Part shown: positions 15,327 through 26,559 of the stretch, piece by piece | Layout of the letters: each line of letters begins with the position of its first letter | Numbering within the stretch: position 1 is the stretch's first letter | Assembly: GCA_030147525.1 (NCBI GenBank) | Contig: JASBVF010000027.1 | Location: 1-64,000 of the forward strand | Direction: 5' to 3' | From: Bacteroidota bacterium | GTDB taxonomy: Bacteria > Bacteroidota > Bacteroidia > Chitinophagales > Saprospiraceae | DNA length: 64,000 nucleotides | The notes under the pieces: generated by a model | Seen by the model: the letters and a program-made list of their open reading frames with translations, nothing else | Told to the model about the DNA's origin: nothing | The model's database searches: none | Program-made: the position numbers and the translations under genes

Positions 15327-15420
15327 ATTCGCTACTGTTTTCAGTGACCGGGGCCTGTTTTGCCCCACATTTTGTAACTATACCCCATAATTTTATAAAG
15401 CATCACGGCATTAAAACCAT

Positions 15421-15428
15421 TAATTTTG
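15421..15428 (+). promoter_or_regulatory. Candidate -7 element before the HYC_CC_PP/cus genes
   Basis: TAATTTTG matches TAnnTTTG and lies 17 nt before the ATG at 15446. No convincing TTTG -33 element is found at the right distance, so an activator may be needed or the match may be chance. Confidence 0.3.
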
Positions 15429-15445
15429 CGGTGATTTTTGAATCA

Positions 15446-15874
15446 ATGGCAGCTAAGTTCCTACATATCATCCTCGCGTTGTCGGTTCTGTTCAGCACGA
15501 CCGGCTTCACCTTGAGCAAACACTTTTGCCAAAAAGAGTTGCAGGAGGTGAGCCTGTTTGCGAAAGCGGAAAACTGCCAACATGCCAAAACGCCTCCCTG
15601 CCAAAGCGCCAGCCATCATTGCGGTTCGCATTCCGATAAAGATGATAACGGTTGCTGCAACAACACTGCTAAATATTATAAGCTCGACCAGGAAAAACAG
15701 GCCCAATCGCTTGAGTTCAAACCGTTGAAAGCCCCGGTATTGCTTGCAGCCGTCCTGGTCATATTTAATATCGAACTGCCGGTTGACAAAACCCAATTTC
15801 TCACCTACCAAACCTACAAGCCACCCATTGTCTGCGACGATTTCCAGTCCATGTTGCAGACGTTCCGTTTATAA
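15446..15874 (+). CDS. HYC_CC_PP family protein
   Basis: A 142-residue exported protein. After a signal peptide (IILALSVLFSTTGFTLSKHF) it has Cys/His clusters (KHFCQ, CQHAKTPPCQ, HHCGSH, NGCCNN), a second hydrophobic segment (VLLAAVLVIF) and the closing YKPPIV. That order of a histidine/Cys pair, a CC pair and a PP pair is what gives the Bacteroidota HYC_CC_PP family its name. The function is not established. Its place directly before the CusA-type pump, and the many Cys and His residues, point to a periplasmic metal-binding accessory. The start at 15446 was chosen because it places the signal peptide at the N-terminus. Confidence 0.7.
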   Translation: MAAKFLHIILALSVLFSTTGFTLSKHFCQKELQEVSLFAKAENCQHAKTPPCQSASHHCGSHSDKDDNGCCNNTAKYYKLDQEKQAQSLEFKPLKAPVLLAAVLVIFNIELPVDKTQFLTYQTYKPPIVCDDFQSMLQTFRL

Positions 15875-15985: not shown

Positions 15986-18900
15986 ATGCTTAACGGAATC
16001 ATTCGCTTTTTCCTTGAAAACAAATTCGTCACCCTGCTCCTGCTGGTGATATTTATTGGGTGGGGCATCGCCACCGCCCCTTTCGGCTGGAAGACCTTCC
16101 TGCCCTCCGACCCCGTGCCTGTGGATGCTATCCCCGACCTCGGCGAAAACCAGCAAATCGTTTTCACCAACTGGATGGGGCGCTCCCCGCAGGACATCGA
16201 AGACCAAATCACCTACCCGCTCACGACCTTCCTGCTCGGCATCCCCGGCGTGAAATCCATCCGGAGTTCCTCCATCTTCGGCTTGTCCAGCATCTACATC
16301 ATTTTTGATGAAAGCATCGAGTTTTACTGGTCACGCAGCCGGATTTTGGAAAAACTCAACTCCCTGCCCTCCAACCTGCTGCCAACCGGGGTGCAGCCGT
16401 CGTTGGGGCCGGATGCCACTGCCCTGGGGCAGGTGTTCTGGTACACCATAGAAGGGCGTGATTCCGCCGGGAACGCCACCGGCGGATGGGATTTGAACGA
16501 AATCAGGACGGTGCAGGATTTTTATGTAAAATATTCCCTCAATGCCGTCGAGGGCGTCTCCGAAGTCGCCTCCATTGGTGGCCACGTCAAAGAGTACCAG
16601 GTGGACGTGAACCCCGATGCCCTTAAAGCCTACAACATCCCCTTGACAAAGGTGATGGATGCCGTTAAAAAGTCGAACCGGGACGTCGGCGCAAAGACCA
16701 TCGAAATCAACAAGGCGGAATACTTTGTCCGAGGGCTGGGCTACATCAAAAAAGTGGAAGACCTCGAACTGGCGGTCGTGGCCGTGAACAACAACGTGCC
16801 CATCCGCATCAAGGACATTGGCGTCGTGAAATTGGGCCCGGCTACCAGGCGGGGCCTGCTCGACAAGGACGGCGCCGAGGTGGTCGGGGGCGTGGTGGTT
16901 GCCCGCTACGGCTCCAACCCGCTCGCCGTCATCAACGGCGTCAAAGAAAAAATCAAGGCGACCGCCTCTGGTCTGCCAAAAAAGACCCTGGCCAACGGGA
17001 CGGTGAGCCAATTGACTGTCGTGCCTTTTTACGACCGTTCCCAACTTATTCATGAAACCCTCGGCACGCTCGAACGGGCGCTCTCGCACGAAATCATCAT
17101 CAGCATCATCGTGGTCATCGTGCTGGTACTCAACCTGCGGGCATCGCTGCTCATCTCCAGCATGTTGCCGGTGGCGGTGCTGATGACTTTCGTCGTCATG
17201 CGCTATGCCGGGGTGGACGCCAACATCGTGGCACTGTCCGGCATCGCCATCGCCATCGGCGTGATGGTGGACGTGGGGATTGTTTTTGTGGAAAACATCA
17301 TCCGCCACCTCGAACTGCCGGAGAACCACGGGGTGCGGGGGCGGCGCCTGCTCGAAGTTATCTACGAGGCGACGGTCGAAGTCTCGTCCGCCATTACCAC
17401 GGCGCTGGCGACGACGGTGGTCAGTTTTCTGCCCGTGTTTGCGATGGAATCGGCGGAAGGCAAGCTGTTCAAGCCGCTGGCATTCACAAAAACCTTTGCG
17501 CTGGGCGCTTCTTTCGTGCTCGGTATCGTGGTACTGCCTGCGCTGGCGCACCTGGTGATGTCGTTGAATTTTGACAAAAAAAGGGTGCGGGGTATCTGGA
17601 ACGTTGCGCTCATTGCCGCAGGCATCCTGTTCGCCATCGTTTATAAAACCTGGCTGCCCGTATGGCTGGTAGTTATCGGTTTGAACAACCTGTTTGAAAG
17701 CAAATGGCCGGAACGCTGGAAATCGGCGCCCAATTTTATCAATGTCGCTGTTGTTGTGCTGGTCGCCACGTTTTTCCTGACTGAGGAGTGGGCGCCGCTG
17801 GGGCACCATAATTCGCTGTTTGTCAACTACCTTTTTGTGCTGATGCTACTCGGCATCATTCTCGGTGCGTTACTGTCCATTGTCCATTTTTACGAACCTG
17901 TTTTGAAATGGTGCCTCGTGAACAAAGGCAAGTTCATGCTCATCCCGTTGTTCACCATCCTCTTTGGGCTGGTCATCTGGTTGGGGTGGAACACGGCTTT
18001 CGGCTTCGTTGCCAAAGGCTTCGACAAGACCGGCTGGAACGTCCGCACGACCGGACTTTGGAGCACCATGACGCACAAATTCCCCGGCATGGGCAAGGAG
18101 TTCATGCCCTCGCTCAACGAGGGCAGTTTCCTGTTGATGCCCACTTCCATGCCGCACTCCGGGGTAGAGGAAAACCAGCGGGTGGTGGCACAGCTCGACA
18201 TGCTGCTGGCGAACATCCCCGAAGTGGAACTGGCCGTGGGCAAGGCCGGGCGTGCCGAAACCGCCCTCGACCCTGCCCCGATTTCGATGTACGAGAACGT
18301 CATCAATTACAAACCGGAGTTTTTAATCAATGAAGACGGAAAGCGGGAAACTTTCAAGGTGGATAAAAAAGAGCGCTTCATCCTTGTTTCGGGCGATTCG
18401 CTCACGAACGAGGAAGCCCTGGAACGGGGTGTGAAACCTACCGAACTTATCCCCGACCCGGACGGCCAATACTTCCGCAACTGGCGCCCGAAAATCAAAA
18501 AACCTGCCGACATCTGGGACGAAGTCGTGCGGGTGACCAAAATCCCCGGTGTCACCTCTGCCCCGAAATTGCAGCCCATCGAAACCCGCCTCGTCATGCT
18601 CCAGACCGGCATGAGGGCACCCATGGGCATCAAGGTCTATGGCCCCGATTTGAAGACCATCGAGGATTTCGGGCTGAAACTCGAAGCCATCCTGAAAGAA
18701 GTGCCCTCGGTAAAGTCAGAGGCCGTTTTTGCCGACCGCATCGTGGGCAAACCCTACCTCCACCTGAACATTGACAGGGTGGCTGCCGCCCGCTACGGGC
18801 TGAATATCGAGGACGTGCAGATGTTCATCGAAACCGCCATCGGCGGTATCGCTCTGACGAGCACGGTGGAGGGCAGGGAGCGTTTCCCTGTGCGGGTGCG

Positions 18901-19816
18901 CTACCCCCGTGAGCTTCGGGACAACCCCGAAAGCATCAAAGAAATGCTGGTACCGACCCCGGTCGGGGCGCAAGTGCCACTCGGCGAATTGCTGGAAATC
19001 GAATACGTGCGGGGGCCTCAGTTGATTAAAAGCGAGGACACATTCCTGACCGGCTACGTGCTGCTCGACAAAAAAGAGGGCTACGCAGAGGTGAATGTCG
19101 TGGAAGAAGCCACCCGTTTCATCCAGCAAAGGATTGACAATGGCGAACTGGCCGTGCCTGCCGGGGTGAGCTACAGGTTTTCCGGCAGCTACGAAAACCA
19201 GTTGCGGGCGATGAAACGGCTGTCCATCGTCATCCCCATCAGTCTCATCACCATCTTTTTGCTGTTGTTTTTTCAGTTCAAAACGGTCATCGCCTCGTCC
19301 ATCCACTTTTCGGGCGTGTTCGTGGCGTTCGCCGGCGGCTTCATCATGCTCTGGCTGTACGGGCAGGACTGGTTCCTGAATTTCTCCATCGCCGAAGTGA
19401 GCATGCGGGAGCTGTTCCAACTGCACCCCATCAACCTCAGTGTGGCGGTCTGGGTGGGCTTCATCGCCCTGTTCGGCATCGCCACCGACGACGGGGTCAT
19501 CATGGGTACATACATCCACCAGGTCTTCGAAGAAAGAAAACCGCAGACCGTGCCGGAAGTAAGGGAGGCTGTTTTGATAGCAGGTAAAAAACGGGTACGC
19601 CCCGCCATGATGACAGCAGCCGTTGCCATCATCGCCCTGCTGCCTGTGCTGACTTCGACTGGAAAAGGCGCCGACATCATGGTACCGATGGCGATTCCGA
19701 CATTCGGAGGGATGACAATCCAGTTGATGACGATGTTCGTGGTGCCGGTGTTGCAGGCGTATTGGCGGGAGACGGTGGTGAAAAGGCAGGCATCTTCAAC
19801 GGTTACGCCAAGCTGA
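15986..19816 (+). CDS. cusA: CusA/CzcA-type heavy-metal RND efflux pump
   Basis: Inner-membrane RND transporter, 1276 residues, longer than the roughly 1040 usual for Cus/Czc pumps. The N-terminus has FLENKFVTLLLLVIF and the family's 'GWKTFLPSDPVPVDAIPDLG'. Central features are TVVSFLPVFAMES, GKEFMPSLNEGSFLLMP and RAPMGIKVYGPD; the TM4-type acidic motif is seen in GIATDDGVIMG. Extra length lies in an added hydrophobic block (about 530-690, several membrane segments) and a charged periplasmic insertion (about 770-850). With the TolC and adaptor genes that follow it forms a tripartite exporter, most likely for Cu(I)/Ag(I) in view of the surrounding Met/His-rich proteins; zinc, cobalt or cadmium are not excluded. 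Confidence 0.92.
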   Translation: MLNGIIRFFLENKFVTLLLLVIFIGWGIATAPFGWKTFLPSDPVPVDAIPDLGENQQIVFTNWMGRSPQDIEDQITYPLTTFLLGIPGVKSIRSSSIFGLSSIYIIFDESIEFYWSRSRILEKLNSLPSNLLPTGVQPSLGPDATALGQVFWYTIEGRDSAGNATGGWDLNEIRTVQDFYVKYSLNAVEGVSEVASIGGHVKEYQVDVNPDALKAYNIPLTKVMDAVKKSNRDVGAKTIEINKAEYFVRGLGYIKKVEDLELAVVAVNNNVPIRIKDIGVVKLGPATRRGLLDKDGAEVVGGVVVARYGSNPLAVINGVKEKIKATASGLPKKTLANGTVSQLTVVPFYDRSQLIHETLGTLERALSHEIIISIIVVIVLVLNLRASLLISSMLPVAVLMTFVVMRYAGVDANIVALSGIAIAIGVMVDVGIVFVENIIRHLELPENHGVRGRRLLEVIYEATVEVSSAITTALATTVVSFLPVFAMESAEGKLFKPLAFTKTFALGASFVLGIVVLPALAHLVMSLNFDKKRVRGIWNVALIAAGILFAIVYKTWLPVWLVVIGLNNLFESKWPERWKSAPNFINVAVVVLVATFFLTEEWAPLGHHNSLFVNYLFVLMLLGIILGALLSIVHFYEPVLKWCLVNKGKFMLIPLFTILFGLVIWLGWNTAFGFVAKGFDKTGWNVRTTGLWSTMTHKFPGMGKEFMPSLNEGSFLLMPTSMPHSGVEENQRVVAQLDMLLANIPEVELAVGKAGRAETALDPAPISMYENVINYKPEFLINEDGKRETFKVDKKERFILVSGDSLTNEEALERGVKPTELIPDPDGQYFRNWRPKIKKPADIWDEVVRVTKIPGVTSAPKLQPIETRLVMLQTGMRAPMGIKVYGPDLKTIEDFGLKLEAILKEVPSVKSEAVFADRIVGKPYLHLNIDRVAAARYGLNIEDVQMFIETAIGGIALTSTVEGRERFPVRVRYPRELRDNPESIKEMLVPTPVGAQVPLGELLEIEYVRGPQLIKSEDTFLTGYVLLDKKEGYAEVNVVEEATRFIQQRIDNGELAVPAGVSYRFSGSYENQLRAMKRLSIVIPISLITIFLLLFFQFKTVIASSIHFSGVFVAFAGGFIMLWLYGQDWFLNFSIAEVSMRELFQLHPINLSVAVWVGFIALFGIATDDGVIMGTYIHQVFEERKPQTVPEVREAVLIAGKKRVRPAMMTAAVAIIALLPVLTSTGKGADIMVPMAIPTFGGMTIQLMTMFVVPVLQAYWRETVVKRQASSTVTPS

Positions 19817-19851
19817 CAGCAATCAAGTTTTTTAACAAAAAAGAAAAAATC

Positions 19852-21087
19852 ATGCGCAGTATAATCATCATTCTTTCCATCCTGGCGGCGGGCAGCCTTT
19901 CCGCCCAGACGCTGGAAGACTACCTGAAAATCGCTGCCGGAAACAACCCCGGCATCAAGGCGAAACAGACGGAGGTGCAAGCTGCCCTGCAAAAACTCCC
20001 GCAGGCGAAAGCGTTGCCCGACCCGACGGTAAACGCCTCGTTTTTCCTCAGCCCCATGATGCTGCCGATGGGCAACCAGTTGGGCAGCATCTCTGCGATG
20101 CAGATGTTCCCGTGGTTCGGGGCGCTCGACGCCATGGAAAACGAGGCGGCACGGATGGCCGAGGTGAAACTCCAGGCAGTGCAGGTGGCACAAAACGAAC
20201 TGTTTTTCAAGGTGAAAAACGGCTGGTATCCGCTGTTCGAGCTGGAGGAAAAAATCCGCATCCAGCAAGACCTTTTGCGCCTGCTCGAAACGGACAAGGA
20301 ACTCGCCACCGTCATGTTCCAGCAGGGCATGGCGCCCATGGTGGACCCCATCCGGGCGGACATCATGATTGATGAGGTGAAGACCGAAATCGCCCTGCTC
20401 CAACAAAAGCGCAAGCCGCTGGAAGTGGCCTTCAACCGCTTGCTCAACCGGGACGACAACCTTCCGGTGACCATCTCCGGTTTGTTGCCAGAACCCGTGT
20501 TCGGCGCCGCCGCCCGCCAGGACAGCCTCATCGCCAACAACCCCATGCTGGCGGTCTTCGACAAACAGATACAGGCTGCCATCGCTGAGGAAAAAGTAGC
20601 GGATTATATGCGGAAGCCGATGATTGGCGCCGGCTTGCAGTATATGCCCCAGGTGAAACGCAAAGGCGGCGACCTCGACCTGCCGCCCAACACCGGCAGG
20701 GACATGGTGATGCCCATGTTCTCCGTCACCGTGCCCATCTGGAAGAAAAAATACAACGCTGCCGTCGAGGAGCGGCGGCTGATGCAGGTCATGTACGCAG
20801 ACATGAAACAGGACATGCAAAACGACCTTGCCTCGATGTACGAAATGACTTTTTACGAACTGGAAAAAATGGCGCAAATGGTCGAACTGCTCAACCTTCA
20901 GACGGTGAAAACCCAGCAGGCGGTTGACCTCGTACTGGCTGCCTACAGCAATGCCGGGCAGGACTTTGAAGAAGTTTTGCGCTTGCAGCAGCAGTTGTTC
21001 CGTTACCGGACGGAAAAGGTTTCGGCGCAGACGGAGTACCAACTGATGTTGGTGAAACTGGATTATTTGACAGGGAAAATGAATTAA
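19852..21087 (+). CDS. TolC family outer membrane efflux protein
   Basis: A 411-residue outer-membrane factor. The ATG at 19852 opens a signal peptide (IIIILSILAAGSLSAQ). The mature protein is alpha-helical with the repeated TolC pattern (LEDYLKIAAGNNPGIKAKQ at the start and LVLAAYSNAGQDFEEVLRLQ late), plus short beta parts such as VNASFFLSPMM. Met-rich stretches (SPMMLPMGNQLGSISAMQM) suit a copper/silver exporter. It lies 35 nt after the CusA-type gene and 66 nt before the adaptor gene, so it is the outer-membrane channel of the same tripartite pump. Confidence 0.88.
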   Translation: MRSIIIILSILAAGSLSAQTLEDYLKIAAGNNPGIKAKQTEVQAALQKLPQAKALPDPTVNASFFLSPMMLPMGNQLGSISAMQMFPWFGALDAMENEAARMAEVKLQAVQVAQNELFFKVKNGWYPLFELEEKIRIQQDLLRLLETDKELATVMFQQGMAPMVDPIRADIMIDEVKTEIALLQQKRKPLEVAFNRLLNRDDNLPVTISGLLPEPVFGAAARQDSLIANNPMLAVFDKQIQAAIAEEKVADYMRKPMIGAGLQYMPQVKRKGGDLDLPPNTGRDMVMPMFSVTVPIWKKKYNAAVEERRLMQVMYADMKQDMQNDLASMYEMTFYELEKMAQMVELLNLQTVKTQQAVDLVLAAYSNAGQDFEEVLRLQQQLFRYRTEKVSAQTEYQLMLVKLDYLTGKMN

Positions 21088-21153: not shown

Positions 21154-22935
21154 ATGAAAAAGATAAAAATCAATCGTTCCACACTCATTGCCGCCATCGT
21201 CATGCTGGCGGCCGGACTGCTCATTGGCTGGCTCGCCAAACCTTCGGCTCCGGGCGGCACAACGCACGAAGGGCATGAAATGGCAGGCACGGAATCTTCC
21301 AAAGCCACTACCTGGACTTGCTCCATGCACCCGCAAATACGCCAGCCTGAACCGGGTCAATGTCCCATCTGCGGAATGGATTTGATACCGCTGGACGACA
21401 ACATGTCATCGGAAGGCGACCCGATGGAAATCAAGATGTCGCCCACGGCGATGCAACTGGCCAACATTCAGACCGCCGTCGTGGGTTACGGTATGCCCAC
21501 CAGAGAGGTGCGCATGAACGGCAAGGTGCAGCCCGACGAGCGGCTGAAATATTCGCAGGTGACCCACCTTGACGGACGGGTGGAGCAGCTTGCCATCAAC
21601 TTCACGGGCGAACCGGTGAGGCGGGGGCAACGGATTGCGAGCGTGTATTCTCCCGAACTCGTCACGGCACAGCAGGAACTTTTTTCAGCTTTGAAAATAA
21701 AGGACATGCAACCAGCCCTTTTCAATTCCGCCAAGCAAAAACTCAAAAACTGGAAGCTCACCGACCAGCAAGTCGAGGAGATACTGGCCTCCGGCAAACC
21801 GCAGGAGCGCTTCCCCATCCACGCTGACGTGAGCGGGATTGTTTTGGAAAAAAAGGTCAACCTCGGCGATTACGTCATGCGGGGTATGCCGTTGTACGAG
21901 GTGGTGGATTTGTCGAGGGTTTGGGTGCTGTTCGACGTGTACGAGAGCGACATGAGTTGGGCGAAGGTGGGCAGTATGGTGGATTTCACCATCCAGTCAC
22001 TTCCGGGCGAAAAATTCAAAGGGAAAATCACTTTCATTGACCCCGTCATAGACCCTATGACACGGGTGGCGAAAGCCCGGGTGGAAGTTTCCAACCCCGG
22101 CGGCAAGCTCAAACCCGAAATGTTTGCCAGCGGCATCATCAAAACCCAATTGGCAGGCAAAAAAGACCAGCTCGTCGTCCCGAAATCCGCCGTCATGTGG
22201 ACGGGTGAGCGTTCGGTGGTGTATCTGAAACATACCACCGACGCCGGCACCAGCTTCCTGATGCGGGAAGTGGAGCTCGGCCCGTTAACGGGTGATGGGT
22301 ACGTGATAAAGTCAGGTTTAGAGGCAGGTGAGGAAATCGCCGTCAACGGCACCTTCTCCATTGATGCCGCCGCCCAATTGGCAGGCAAACCCAGCATGAT
22401 GAACCCCGAAGGTGGTACGGTGATGACCGGGCACAATCACGGTGGCAGTTCACCTTCGGCCGCTGCACCTGCGAAACCAATGGAAGTGAGCAAACAGGCG
22501 ACGGCGGCGGTCAAGCAATTATTCGACCTCTACTTTCCACTGAAAGATGCACTGGTGAAAGCCGATTTGGTGGTTGCCAAAAAGCAGGCCGGCGATTTGA
22601 AAAAAGCTTTTGATAAAACCAGCATGAGCCTGTTCACCGGCGAAGCCCACAACCACTGGATGAACCACAGTGCCGCCGCCATTGAGGCTTTGAACAAAAT
22701 AGCCGTTGCCAGGGACGTGGAGGAGGCGAGGAAATATTTCAAACCGCTCTCCGGTCAGATGGTGGCGCTGGCAAAAGCCTTCGGCCCCTTCGGCGAAACG
22801 GTGTACGTGCAGCACTGCCCGATGGCGGACAACAACACCGGCGCTGACTGGCTGAGCCTCGACGAACAAATCAAGAACCCCTATTTCGGCGATAAAATGC
22901 TGAAATGCGGGAAGGTGACGGCGACGATAAAGTGA
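21154..22935 (+). CDS. cusB: CusB-type periplasmic adaptor with metal-binding and DUF3347 domains
   Basis: A 593-residue membrane fusion protein. One N-terminal membrane segment (LIAAIVMLAAGLLIGWLA) is followed by a heavy-metal-binding domain with C56-x-MHP and C70-P-I-C-GMDL. The adaptor core (about 100-400) has the barrel-sandwich pattern (YSQVTHLDGRVEQLAINFTG, FPIHADVSGIVLEKKVNLGD) and beta-barrel (VWVLFDVYESDMSWAKVGS). The C-terminal part (about 450-593) is a DUF3347 domain ending with HCPMA and NPYFGDKMLKCGKV. It would link the CusA-type pump to TolC and pass metal to it. A free-standing DUF3347 lipoprotein lies at 29204. Confidence 0.9.
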   Translation: MKKIKINRSTLIAAIVMLAAGLLIGWLAKPSAPGGTTHEGHEMAGTESSKATTWTCSMHPQIRQPEPGQCPICGMDLIPLDDNMSSEGDPMEIKMSPTAMQLANIQTAVVGYGMPTREVRMNGKVQPDERLKYSQVTHLDGRVEQLAINFTGEPVRRGQRIASVYSPELVTAQQELFSALKIKDMQPALFNSAKQKLKNWKLTDQQVEEILASGKPQERFPIHADVSGIVLEKKVNLGDYVMRGMPLYEVVDLSRVWVLFDVYESDMSWAKVGSMVDFTIQSLPGEKFKGKITFIDPVIDPMTRVAKARVEVSNPGGKLKPEMFASGIIKTQLAGKKDQLVVPKSAVMWTGERSVVYLKHTTDAGTSFLMREVELGPLTGDGYVIKSGLEAGEEIAVNGTFSIDAAAQLAGKPSMMNPEGGTVMTGHNHGGSSPSAAAPAKPMEVSKQATAAVKQLFDLYFPLKDALVKADLVVAKKQAGDLKKAFDKTSMSLFTGEAHNHWMNHSAAAIEALNKIAVARDVEEARKYFKPLSGQMVALAKAFGPFGETVYVQHCPMADNNTGADWLSLDEQIKNPYFGDKMLKCGKVTATIK

Positions 22936-23005: not shown

Positions 23006-23275
23006 ATGAAGTCATTAAAAATCATGGCATTTCTCGTGTTTTTCGCTGCTGCTTCGGCAGTCGCCGTTTCGTGCGGCGGCAATCATCATTCGGAATCCTC
23101 CGAAGCCAAACAAGGCAAGGAATACACCTCCGCCTACGTCTGCCCGATGCACTGCGAGGGCAGCGGCAGTGAGGAACCGGGCAAGTGCCCTAAGTGTGGG
23201 ATGGAATACAAAAAGAATGAAAACCACCAACCTGATGGGCACGACCAAAGTAGCCATGAGGGACATAATCACTGA
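23006..23275 (+). CDS. Heavy-metal-binding lipoprotein
   Basis: An 89-residue lipoprotein: signal VFFAAASAVAVSCGGN with the lipid Cys at about residue 23. The mature domain has VCPMHCEGSGSEEPGKCPKCG, a variant of the CxMHP...CPxCGM heavy-metal-binding domain also present in the CusB-type adaptor. A His-rich tail follows (HQPDGHDQSSHEGHNH). The ATG at 23006 is preferred to a TTG two codons earlier. It probably binds copper or another soft metal in the periplasm and delivers it to the efflux pump. It is flanked by two REP-like repeats. Confidence 0.75.
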   Translation: MKSLKIMAFLVFFAAASAVAVSCGGNHHSESSEAKQGKEYTSAYVCPMHCEGSGSEEPGKCPKCGMEYKKNENHQPDGHDQSSHEGHNH

Positions 23276-23360: not shown

Positions 23361-23765
23361 ATGAAGTATTTAAGTCAAATCCTGAGTCTCGGATTTTTTC
23401 TATTCCTGGCCATCCAGGTACAGGCACAACATGACCACGGCAGTCATGGCCACAAGGCGGAACCCGCCAAAACCGAAGCAATGCCCGCTGGCGGCGTAAC
23501 GGATATTTTCATGGTTTACGGCAACTGCGGCATGTGCGAGCGGCGGATTGAAGGAGCGCTCTCCAAGGTGAAAGGCGTCCATTCTGCTGATTGGGACGTG
23601 GACACGAAAGTGCTGACTGTCAAGTACGACGATACCGCCATCTCGCTCGACGACATCAAGAAAAAAGTGGCGGAAGCGGGGCACGACACGGACAAGTTCC
23701 GGGCGAAAGACGAAGTGTACGGCAATCTTCCGGGTTGCTGCCAGTACGAGCGGCCGAAAAGTTAG
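23361..23765 (+). CDS. Exported HMA-domain metal chaperone
   Basis: A 134-residue protein with a signal peptide (LGFFLFLAIQVQAQ), a short His-rich stretch (HDHGSHGHK) and one heavy-metal-associated domain. The metal site is GNC56GMC59 (the family's CxxC), followed by the usual RRIEGALSKVKGVHSADWDV fold. The C-terminus adds GCCQYERPKS. It is the periplasmic counterpart of CopZ-type chaperones and probably shuttles Cu(I). Its neighbours are the heavy-metal lipoprotein and a small membrane protein. Confidence 0.8.
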   Translation: MKYLSQILSLGFFLFLAIQVQAQHDHGSHGHKAEPAKTEAMPAGGVTDIFMVYGNCGMCERRIEGALSKVKGVHSADWDVDTKVLTVKYDDTAISLDDIKKKVAEAGHDTDKFRAKDEVYGNLPGCCQYERPKS

Positions 23766-23996: not shown

Positions 23997-24830
23997 ATGA
24001 AAAAAATACTCGTTCCAACCGACTTCTCCCCCTGCGCCAACAACGCAGCTGAAACAGCATTGCAAATTGCCCAAAAAGCAAATGCGGGCATTGATTTCCT
24101 GCACATCCTGGTCACGCCCATTGATTGGGTGGCTTTGGACATCAGGAAAGAAAGCCAATACCCGGAGGTGAAAAAACAAATTGGCCATGCCAAAACAGAA
24201 CTCAGCAAATGGGTGAAACGGGCAAAAGGGTTGGGGCTGCAAAGTGGAAAGGCGCTATCCTTCACCCAGGGCAACGAAGAAATAGTGAACCATGCCGAAA
24301 GCCACGGCCACGATTTAATCGTGATGGGTTCGCACGGGGCAAGTGGGTTAAAAGAATTGGTGATGGGTTCCAATGCGCAAAATGTGGTGCATAAGGCAAA
24401 GACCCCGGTGCTCATCATCAAAGAGCAGTTGAAAAACTTGAAAGTTGAAAACATGGTTTTCGCCTCCACTTTCCTGGAGGATGTACACCGGCCATTTCAC
24501 CAGATTATTGATTTCGCAGACTTGATGGGGGCATATAACAACCTGCTTTATGTCAATGTGCCTGAGCAGTTTGAGGGGAGCCACGAGAGCGAATCGAGGA
24601 TGAAAAGCTTTCTGACAAGGTGCCCGAGGGGAACATGCAGCATCAATGTATTCAATGCTGAAACCTCCGAAAAGGGCATCCTCCAATTTGCCGAAGACAG
24701 GGGGATGGATGTCATCGCCATCGTGACGCACGGACGGAAAGGCATCAAAGGCTTGTTTGCTTCTTCTTTGACGGAAAAACTGGTCAACCATTCTGTTTTA
24801 CCCGTATTGAGCGTCAACATGCAGGCTTAA
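23997..24830 (+). CDS. Universal stress protein, two UspA domains
   Basis: A 277-residue tandem UspA protein. Domain 1 (1-140) begins MKKILVPTDFSPCANNAAET and ends with the nucleotide-binding GSHGASGLKELVMGSNAQNV, matching G-2x-G-9x-G-(S/T). Domain 2 (about 150-277) ends THGRKGIKGLFASSLTEKLV. Such proteins are cytoplasmic and bind ATP or AMP during stress and growth arrest. The ATG at 23997 is used; an in-frame TTG-type start lies slightly upstream. The gene sits in the metal island together with a regulator and small periplasmic proteins, as often seen where metal and energy stress are linked. Confidence 0.85.
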   Translation: MKKILVPTDFSPCANNAAETALQIAQKANAGIDFLHILVTPIDWVALDIRKESQYPEVKKQIGHAKTELSKWVKRAKGLGLQSGKALSFTQGNEEIVNHAESHGHDLIVMGSHGASGLKELVMGSNAQNVVHKAKTPVLIIKEQLKNLKVENMVFASTFLEDVHRPFHQIIDFADLMGAYNNLLYVNVPEQFEGSHESESRMKSFLTRCPRGTCSINVFNAETSEKGILQFAEDRGMDVIAIVTHGRKGIKGLFASSLTEKLVNHSVLPVLSVNMQA

Positions 24831-24905: not shown

Positions 24906-25214
24906 ATGAAAAATTATCAAAATATAGTTGAGGCGCTGGAAGACCTGAAATCAAGGGGGTTTACCTACGATTTCAACCTGAAACCTTTTTGCCTGGAATG
25001 CGCCAGCCTCCTCTTGCAACTTCATCCGGAGGATTTTGAAATAAAGGAAATTTATCGCTTTGAAGGGATGAGCAATCCCGATGACAGCTCGGTGGTATAT
25101 GCCATCGAATCAACCAGCGGCGTTAAGGGCGTAATGGTAGATGCTTACGGCGCCTATGCGGAAGCGCTCACGCCGGAAATGGCAGCCAAACTTGGAAGCA
25201 CAAATGCTGCGTAG
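24906..25214 (+). CDS. Conserved small protein (often mis-annotated PRPP synthetase-like)
   Basis: A 102-residue acidic protein without signal peptide. It has a CLECASLLLQLHPEDFEIKE block and later SSVVYAIESTSGVKGVMVDA. I recall similar small Bacteroidota proteins labelled 'phosphoribosylpyrophosphate synthetase', but nothing here resembles the PRPP-binding loop, so the label should not be transferred. It lies between the universal stress protein and the metal-responsive AraC-type regulator. Function unknown; possibly a metal-stress accessory. Confidence 0.6.
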   Translation: MKNYQNIVEALEDLKSRGFTYDFNLKPFCLECASLLLQLHPEDFEIKEIYRFEGMSNPDDSSVVYAIESTSGVKGVMVDAYGAYAEALTPEMAAKLGSTNAA

Positions 25215-25251: not shown

Positions 25252-25833
25252 ATGGAAACTTATGAAATCAAGGATTTGGCCATCAAAAACATGATTTGCA
25301 GCAGGTGCCTGAAGGTCATCCGGCAAGACCTCGAATCCATCGGGGTGGAGTTGCTGGAACTGCGGTTGGGGAAAATAAGAATCAAATACCCAAAAGACAA
25401 AGTGACGATGGAGCAAATCGAAGAATTTCTGGAACTGGACGAGTTCGAATTGGTAAAAGACCGGAGCGAGATGATTTCGGAAGAAGTAAAGCTCGTTTTG
25501 ATAGAAATGGTGAATAACCTGCCCATTGACCGCACGCAAAAACTGTCCGATTTTCTTTCAGAAAAACTGCACAGGGACTACTGGACATTGAGCAAGACTT
25601 TTTCTAAAACGGAAGGGACGACCATCGAGCGCTATCTCATCCTGCTCCGGGTGGAAAAAGCCAAGGAACTGATTGAATACGATGAAATGAATTTTTCCGA
25701 AATAGCATATGAACTGGGCTACAACAACATCAACCACCTGTCGGGGCAGTTCAAGCAGGTGACGGGCATGAGCATGAGCGAGTACAAACAGCTAAAAGAC
25801 AAATCCCGCTCGCCATTAGACAAGATTCTGTAA
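25252..25833 (+). CDS. AraC-family regulator with N-terminal HMA-like metal-sensing domain
   Basis: A 193-residue regulator. The N-terminal 75 residues resemble a heavy-metal-associated fold with MICSRC in the place of MxCxxC (residues 14-19) and a beta-alpha-beta pattern (GVELLELRLGKIRIKYP). The C-terminal half is an AraC DNA-binding domain: two helix-turn-helix units, the second with FSEIAYELGYNNINHLSGQF. This gives a plausible one-component metal sensor, with Cys pair occupancy altering DNA binding. The gap downstream (25834-26069) contains palindromes that may be its target. It likely controls the surrounding copper genes. Confidence 0.78.
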   Translation: METYEIKDLAIKNMICSRCLKVIRQDLESIGVELLELRLGKIRIKYPKDKVTMEQIEEFLELDEFELVKDRSEMISEEVKLVLIEMVNNLPIDRTQKLSDFLSEKLHRDYWTLSKTFSKTEGTTIERYLILLRVEKAKELIEYDEMNFSEIAYELGYNNINHLSGQFKQVTGMSMSEYKQLKDKSRSPLDKIL

Positions 25834-25967
25834 ACATTACCCAAAAGAGGATAAACCCCAATCATGAATAAGTCGTAAATTTATGATTGTTAGATAATTA
25901 GGGTAAAAACCATGATTTTCCAATTCCATTTCACACCTGCACTTCTCACGGATTTTTAGAATGATAA

Positions 25968-25998
25968 AAAACAAGGTTTAAAACCTGTTTTAAAACAG
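25968..25998. promoter_or_regulatory. Palindromic operator candidate
   Basis: Two overlapping inverted repeats lie in the 236-nt gap after the AraC-type regulator. One is imperfect (AAAACAAGGTTTAAAACC, continuing to TGTTTT; 25968-25991). The other is a perfect 14-bp palindrome, CTGTTTTAAAACAG (25985-25998). The half-site AAACAAGGTTT recurs at about 26055-26065, directly before the ATG at 26070. Without a loop and T-tract this is more like a protein-binding site than a terminator. A TTATTTTG box near 26040 could be a -7 element. The rest of the gap is AT-rich without clear features. Confidence 0.4.
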
Positions 25999-26069
25999 CG
26001 TATTAAGCCAACTTGATTCAATTGACCTCGGTTGAAAGGTTATTTTGTTGACTAAAAACAAGGTTTTAC

Positions 26070-26303
26070 ATGAAAAACAAACGCTTGATTTGGATGCTCA
26101 TTGGCTGCGTTTTGCCGCTGCTGCTCATATTCTTTGCCCCGGCCTTGGGTCTGAGCGGGAACATGAGCCTGTTGATTTTCATCGTGGCCATGTTCGCCTG
26201 CCACCTGTTCATGCCGCACGGTCACGGAGGGCATGGAGAGCACGGGCAGCATGACCATTCACCTAACCAAAAAGAAGAACGCCATGAGCAACATTCACAT
26301 TAG
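26070..26303 (+). CDS. DUF2933-like small membrane protein with His-rich tail
   Basis: A 77-residue protein with two hydrophobic segments (WMLIGCVLPLLLIFFAPALG and MSLLIFIVAMFACHLFM) and a tail rich in His (HGHGGHGEHGQHDH). This matches the DUF2933 pattern found near copper and silver resistance genes. The tail could bind metal at the membrane surface. The 3' end overlaps the next gene by 20 nt, so they are co-translated. A repeat half-site of the upstream palindromes lies just before the start codon. Confidence 0.65.
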   Translation: MKNKRLIWMLIGCVLPLLLIFFAPALGLSGNMSLLIFIVAMFACHLFMPHGHGGHGEHGQHDHSPNQKEERHEQHSH

Positions 26304-26559
26304 GAAATTCGGACTGGCCGTGGGGCTGACCTGGGCACTGCTCTACCTCGGTTGTGCCATCGTCATGCTAACCGTCGGCAAGGAAGGCACGGTGCTTTTC
26401 TTCAACAGTTTGCTGCATGGATTGGACACCGCACCCATCATCCGCATGGGGGTGCCGTTTTATGAATTCTGCATTGGGCTGGTCGAGTCCTTTATCCTTG
26501 GCTGGCTGGTGGGGGCTTGCATTGCTGGCATTTACAACTTCAGTATGGCCAAAAAATGA
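26284..26559 (+). CDS. DUF5676-like membrane protein
   Basis: A 91-residue protein with two membrane helices (LAVGLTWALLYLGCAIVML and FCIGLVESFILGWLVGACIA) and a short linker (HGLDTAPI). It resembles the DUF5676 family, which is frequently encoded beside copper P-type ATPases and DUF2933 proteins. The start at 26284 overlaps the previous gene by 20 nt. An in-frame start further upstream lies in the His-rich coding region of that gene and is less likely. Function unknown. Confidence 0.65.
   Translation: MSNIHIRKFGLAVGLTWALLYLGCAIVMLTVGKEGTVLFFNSLLHGLDTAPIIRMGVPFYEFCIGLVESFILGWLVGACIAGIYNFSMAKK

Follow-up and report, generated by a model that had tools for sequence, protein, structure and literature searches.

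The window, a stretch of 64,000 nucleotides from a member of the Saprospiraceae (positions 1 to 64,000, forward strand, of contig JASBVF010000027.1, GenBank assembly GCA_030147525.1), carries on its plus strand a gene for a 193-aa regulator (ATG at 25252, stop codon at 25833). It sits in a copper-efflux locus. The genes ahead of it, on the same strand, encode a HYC_CC_PP family protein (15446–15874; NCBIfam NF047658, 66.6 bits against a cut-off of 28); a CusA/CzcA family heavy-metal efflux RND transporter (15986–19816; TIGR00914, 772.6 bits against 701); an outer membrane efflux protein (19846–21087; Pfam OEP); a CusB-like periplasmic adaptor with HMBD and DUF3347 (21154–22935); a heavy-metal-binding-domain (HMBD) protein (23006–23275; Pfam PF19335); an HMA-domain protein (23361–23765; Pfam PF00403); a universal stress protein (23997–24830; Pfam PF00582); and, directly before the regulator, a 102-aa protein with no Pfam match (24906–25214), a conserved partner that is 79% identical in locus L019 and 69% in L020. 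Behind the regulator, after a gap of 236 bp (32% GC), follow a 77-aa His-rich membrane-type protein (26070–26303, plus strand), found in the same place in L051, and a DUF5676 membrane protein (26287–26559, plus strand; Pfam PF18926).

Both halves of the regulator, an HMA–AraC fusion, are recognised by sequence and by fold. The C-terminal half (residues 102–180; 25555–25791) is a double helix-turn-helix DNA-binding domain of the AraC type, scoring 62.1 bits with HTH_18 and 39.6 bits with HTH_AraC, both above cut-off, and the two models matched all 32 family members tested. The N-terminal head has no match to Pfam HMA (PF00403) at E ≤ 0.1 and thus lies below the Pfam cut-off, while 13 of 32 relatives matched that model directly, if weakly. 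On its own, the N-terminal half of the window protein matched the CopZ structure 1k0v (E = 0.00096), and a family profile of the head led to CopZ structures and the metal-binding domains of copper ATPases. An AlphaFold model, for which the window protein and three relatives served as input (pLDDT 86.9, pTM 0.74), matched both AraC-type DNA-binding domains and CopZ in Foldseek, the latter with a target-normalised TM score of 0.83–0.87 and a probability of 1.00, so that the modelled head has a ferredoxin-like fold. Pfam and NCBIfam searches returned neither a MerR nor a CsoR domain. The head carries a predicted metal-binding motif, MICSRC (residues 14–19; 25291–25308), of which M14 is kept in 107 of 108 relatives, C19 in all 108, and both cysteines (CxxC) in 96; in the remaining 12, the first cysteine is replaced by serine. 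An earlier note on this DNA had described an HMA-like head with MICSRC joined to an AraC domain in the gene starting at 25252, and the open reading frame, the motif and the HTH_18 domain were all located there; its reading of the protein as a one-component metal sensor is well supported by sequence, structural model and gene context.

The same note had called this arrangement uncommon, a description that does not survive a wider survey. Relatives (E ≤ 1e−20), most of them aligning from about residue 9 to 192 and therefore over both domains, were present in 178 of 395 sampled Bacteroidota genomes and, within the same family, in 69 of 199, and the source genome alone has four copies. A further 31 plasmid records matched, annotated almost exclusively as AraC or helix-turn-helix proteins, the genera of which we take to be Bacteroidota throughout. 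At most of the loci inspected, copper or heavy-metal efflux genes adjoin the regulator. Searches of the open full-text literature brought up no paper describing a protein of this kind.

Comparison of the DNA after the regulator stop codon across 108 regulator loci revealed a recurring pair of boxes, namely a direct repeat of AAATTnTRTAA with an exact spacing of 21 bp. Pairs of T[AG]TAA separated by exactly 21 bp occurred in 27 of the 108 loci, against 0.3 expected. The site was captured in a weight matrix of 62 positions, which runs through cnAAATtnTATAA, CCAnAATtnTGTAA, a stretch of about 21 bases and taAnnTTT. In leave-one-out scoring, 60 of 108 loci reached at least 8, against none of 2160 shuffled sequences; when the whole site-finding procedure was applied to 20 shuffled sets, it returned no sites. 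At a matrix score of 12, all sequence examined gave 113 matches, compared with 2 in a control consisting of the same sequence reversed without complementing. A site is adjacent to the regulator at 78 loci (just downstream in 68 of the 108, just upstream in 11, with one locus having both), and 26 loci have no site in the DNA examined, some stretches of which were short. Across 395 genomes, the exact double-box pattern had no match when its spacing was altered by 2 bp, which acts as a control for the spacing. The unaltered pattern was present in 83 of the 178 genomes that have the regulator and in 20 of the 217 that lack it; since the reversed control of this pattern leans the same way (25 genomes with the regulator, 5 without), co-occurrence alone proves little. 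We found no earlier description of this operator, which is conserved across the phylum.

A conserved C-terminal peptide of the regulator, PLDKIL, was considered as the sole cause of the first box. We reject it on three grounds: the majority of sites fall outside coding sequence, at one locus the box is retained at a distance from the regulator, and a second site is present in the window 10 kb from the first. In L051 and L022, other genes stand between the regulator and the gene for the 77-aa protein, and CAAGATTCTGTAAACAATACCCAAATACTTGTAA is found at the promoter of the latter. A DUF302 gene is part of the intervening DNA in L051, where a remnant of the 3′ end of the regulator, with its operator box, persists at the target promoter.

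Two sites in the window score above 7. Operator A (25821–25882; score 33.9, leave-one-out 30.0) consists of a distal box CAAGATTCTGTAAAC (25821–25835), which overlaps the last codons and the stop codon of the regulator, a proximal box CCAAAAGAGGATAAAC (25841–25856) at a spacing of 21 bp and a −7 box TAAATTTA (25876–25883), all on the plus strand. It faces the operon beginning at 26070, the first gene of which encodes the 77-aa protein, and its predicted transcription start is near 25888. The stop codon falls inside the distal box in the same register in 14 of 68 loci, so that coding and regulatory DNA overlap (besides the window, in L019–L021, L023, L025–L028, L035, L117, L130, L132 and L137). 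Operator B (15365–15426; score 32.9), likewise on the plus strand, comprises a distal box CCACATTTTGTAACT (15365–15379), a proximal box CCATAATTTTATAAAG (15385–15400) and a −7 box TAATTTTG that matches the consensus perfectly (15421–15428); it lies 17 nt ahead of the HYC_CC_PP gene, with a predicted start near 15433. The gene order that begins here ends with the regulator, and the gaps between the genes measure 29–111 nt, except for 231 nt between the HMA gene and the stress protein gene. Such short gaps make it plausible that the operator B genes through the regulator form one predicted transcript.

The predicted regulon in the source genome, drawn from pattern and family matches, extends beyond the window. 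Sites stand ahead of genes of the copper-ATPase type beside paralogous regulators (L058, score 40.1; L060, 25.0), and also on a contig from which all four regulators are absent (L007, 34.0; L008, 20.8).

The arrangement of these sites relative to the promoter suggests how they may work. In flavobacterial sigma-A promoters, a −7 consensus TAnnTTTG is documented at −12 to −5 (PMC9723704). The double box lies about 21 nt upstream of such a −7 box; of 75 box sites, 25 have the exact consensus at offsets 55–57 and none has a TTTG near −33. Taken together, the offset of the −7 box and the lack of TTTG near −33 place the proximal box where the −33 element would be expected, a position that suits an activator contacting polymerase.

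Domain make-up, fold, conservation and the operator, with its spacing, position and specificity, were all obtained computationally, and we infer from there the identity of the metal, direct contact of the regulator with DNA, activation and the extent of the operons. On this basis, we consider it probable that the protein is a one-component, Cu(I)/Ag(I)-responsive activator from a family common in Bacteroidota, acting through 21-bp-spaced double boxes. The CopZ-like head would bind cytosolic metal via MxCxxC, and the AraC-type C-terminal domain would bind the pair of AAATTnTRTAA boxes 21 bp apart. With the proximal box replacing the −33 element, the regulator would bring RNA polymerase to the TAnnTTTG −7 box some 21 nt further on. 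Two operons would be switched on in this way: one from 15365, comprising HYC_CC_PP–CusA–TolC–CusB and the genes that follow, probably ending with the regulator itself, which would result in positive autoregulation; and one from 25821, comprising the small-protein and DUF5676 genes.

A site overlapping the −33 position could block polymerase, and the regulator might then bind the 21-bp repeat as a repressor released by metal. We regard this as unlikely, as the absence of a −33 element beneath all 75 sites makes the promoters look activator-dependent, and AraC relatives with direct repeats at a −33-type position are usually activators. The activator mechanism might, alternatively, respond to a soft or borderline metal other than copper or silver (Zn, Cd, Pb or Hg), given the range of metals covered by the CusA/CzcA and P-type ATPase families. 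However, the head is closest to CopZ and copper-ATPase domains, and of four ATPase targets inspected, three match models of copper ATPases with good scores (two of the four being truncated), which renders a different inducer quite improbable. It is from the likeness to CopZ and from the target genes that copper is deduced as the inducer of the proposed activator, with Cu(I)/Ag(I) the most likely form of the signal. That the 21-bp repeat belongs to a different regulator controlling the same loci is suggested by the many extra copies in genomes of genus g127, which hold few family members, but we consider this very unlikely: 78 of 108 loci, drawn from many families, have the site beside an HMA–AraC gene, and the source genome has some 30 AraC-like matches, yet its strong sites cluster at copper genes.

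The earlier note had proposed instead, as regulator targets, a palindrome CTGTTTTAAAACAG (25985–25998) and a repeated half-site AAACAAGGTTT within 25960–26070. These words are indeed present, the copies of AAACAAGGTTT lying at 25969 and 26056, with the second ending 3 bases before the ATG at 26070. They exceed chance only marginally, as dinucleotide shuffles of the 236-bp gap gave a perfect palindrome of at least 14 bp in 3.5% of cases and an exact 11-mer repeat in 3.7%. Neither word occurred in any other regulator locus examined, including the close orthologues L019 (79% identical), L020 (70%) and L022/L051 (65%), so the proposal fails on the absence of the palindrome beside orthologous regulators that the note itself had named as its refutation; we judge the palindrome not to be part of the system and reject both words as operators. 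Binding of the regulator to these words, one of which sits just before the next start codon, is most improbable in view of their absence from all other loci, a chance of roughly 3.5% for each in the shuffles, and a position downstream of the predicted transcription start (about 100 nt in the case of the palindrome and operator A). The double box, rather than the palindrome, is the likely DNA target of the regulator, judging from its sequence conservation.

Within the same gap, upstream of the gene for the 77-aa protein, there is an inverted repeat, TTGACCT..AGGTTA (26019–26045). The arms differ yet still pair in L019 (TTGACTT/AAGTCAA) and L051 (AACCCT/AGGGTT), and the element is a possible leader hairpin or second site. 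As an operator, TTGACCTCGGTTGAAA at 26022 was rejected, being a single copy in the window with no wider support; related inverted repeats are found in L019 and L051.

In some relatives the metal ligands are replaced or lost, with the head otherwise retained along with the AraC domain. They include regulators of the MVSxRC type (L045, L048, L083, L088, L090, L105, L107, L109, L110, L113 and L114), with MACESC (L232, L233 and L235), and with FDINTIC and hence no CxxC (L236–L241), the last being a paralogue present in several g127 genomes. In L114, the MVSxRC-type regulator is followed by a site (score 15.1) and then by a GroEL-like gene. Genomes of genus g127 carry up to 20 exact copies of the double box each, far above the number of HMA–AraC genes, and the double-box promoters L190–L205 and L242–L255, mostly from this genus, stand ahead of stress- or envelope-like genes. 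This surplus of boxes over regulators implies that metal genes are not alone in carrying the box, and the number of copies per genome that it is probably common to relatives of the regulator. By association only, the g127 promoters are possibly the regulon of CxxC-less paralogues. As a broader proposal, which we put forward tentatively as a real possibility, HMA–AraC proteins could be a main copper sensor of Bacteroidota, working through one phylum-wide operator that ligand-altered paralogues (MVSxRC, MACESC and FDINTIC) reuse for large non-metal stress regulons, as in g127.

With a defined pairing of regulator and operator, copper regulons can be predicted throughout the phylum and tested directly, and a metal-inducible promoter for Bacteroidota genetics might be derived from it. 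The pairing also presents a type of protein in which an AraC domain is predicted to be driven by a metallochaperone fold, in nearly half of the sampled Bacteroidota genomes.

Among the closest known proteins are those on plasmids of Hymenobacter, Spirosoma, Pontibacter and others that databases call 'AraC family transcriptional regulator', which belong to the same two-domain family (30–45% identical over nearly the full length); their annotation covers the DNA-binding half only, leaving function and operator unassigned. With the AraC/XylS regulators (AraC, MarA/SoxS, GadX, AdpA) the window protein shares the C-terminal HTH_18 domain and, in its predicted operator, paired direct-repeat sites about two helical turns apart that reach the upstream promoter element. 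It differs from them in having a head with the HMA/CopZ fold instead of a cupin or other ligand pocket, and in its predicted use of the Bacteroidota −7 promoter. The fold, the MxCxxC motif and the sequence similarity seen to 1k0v and 2qif link it to CopZ-type chaperones and HMA domains (PF00403), whereas the window head has diverged below the Pfam cut-off and is fused to a DNA-binding domain. With CueR, CsoR and CopY, finally, it would share the predicted role of cytosolic Cu(I)/Ag(I) control over copper ATPases and efflux, but it would do so with an unrelated DNA-binding domain and a different layout of sites.
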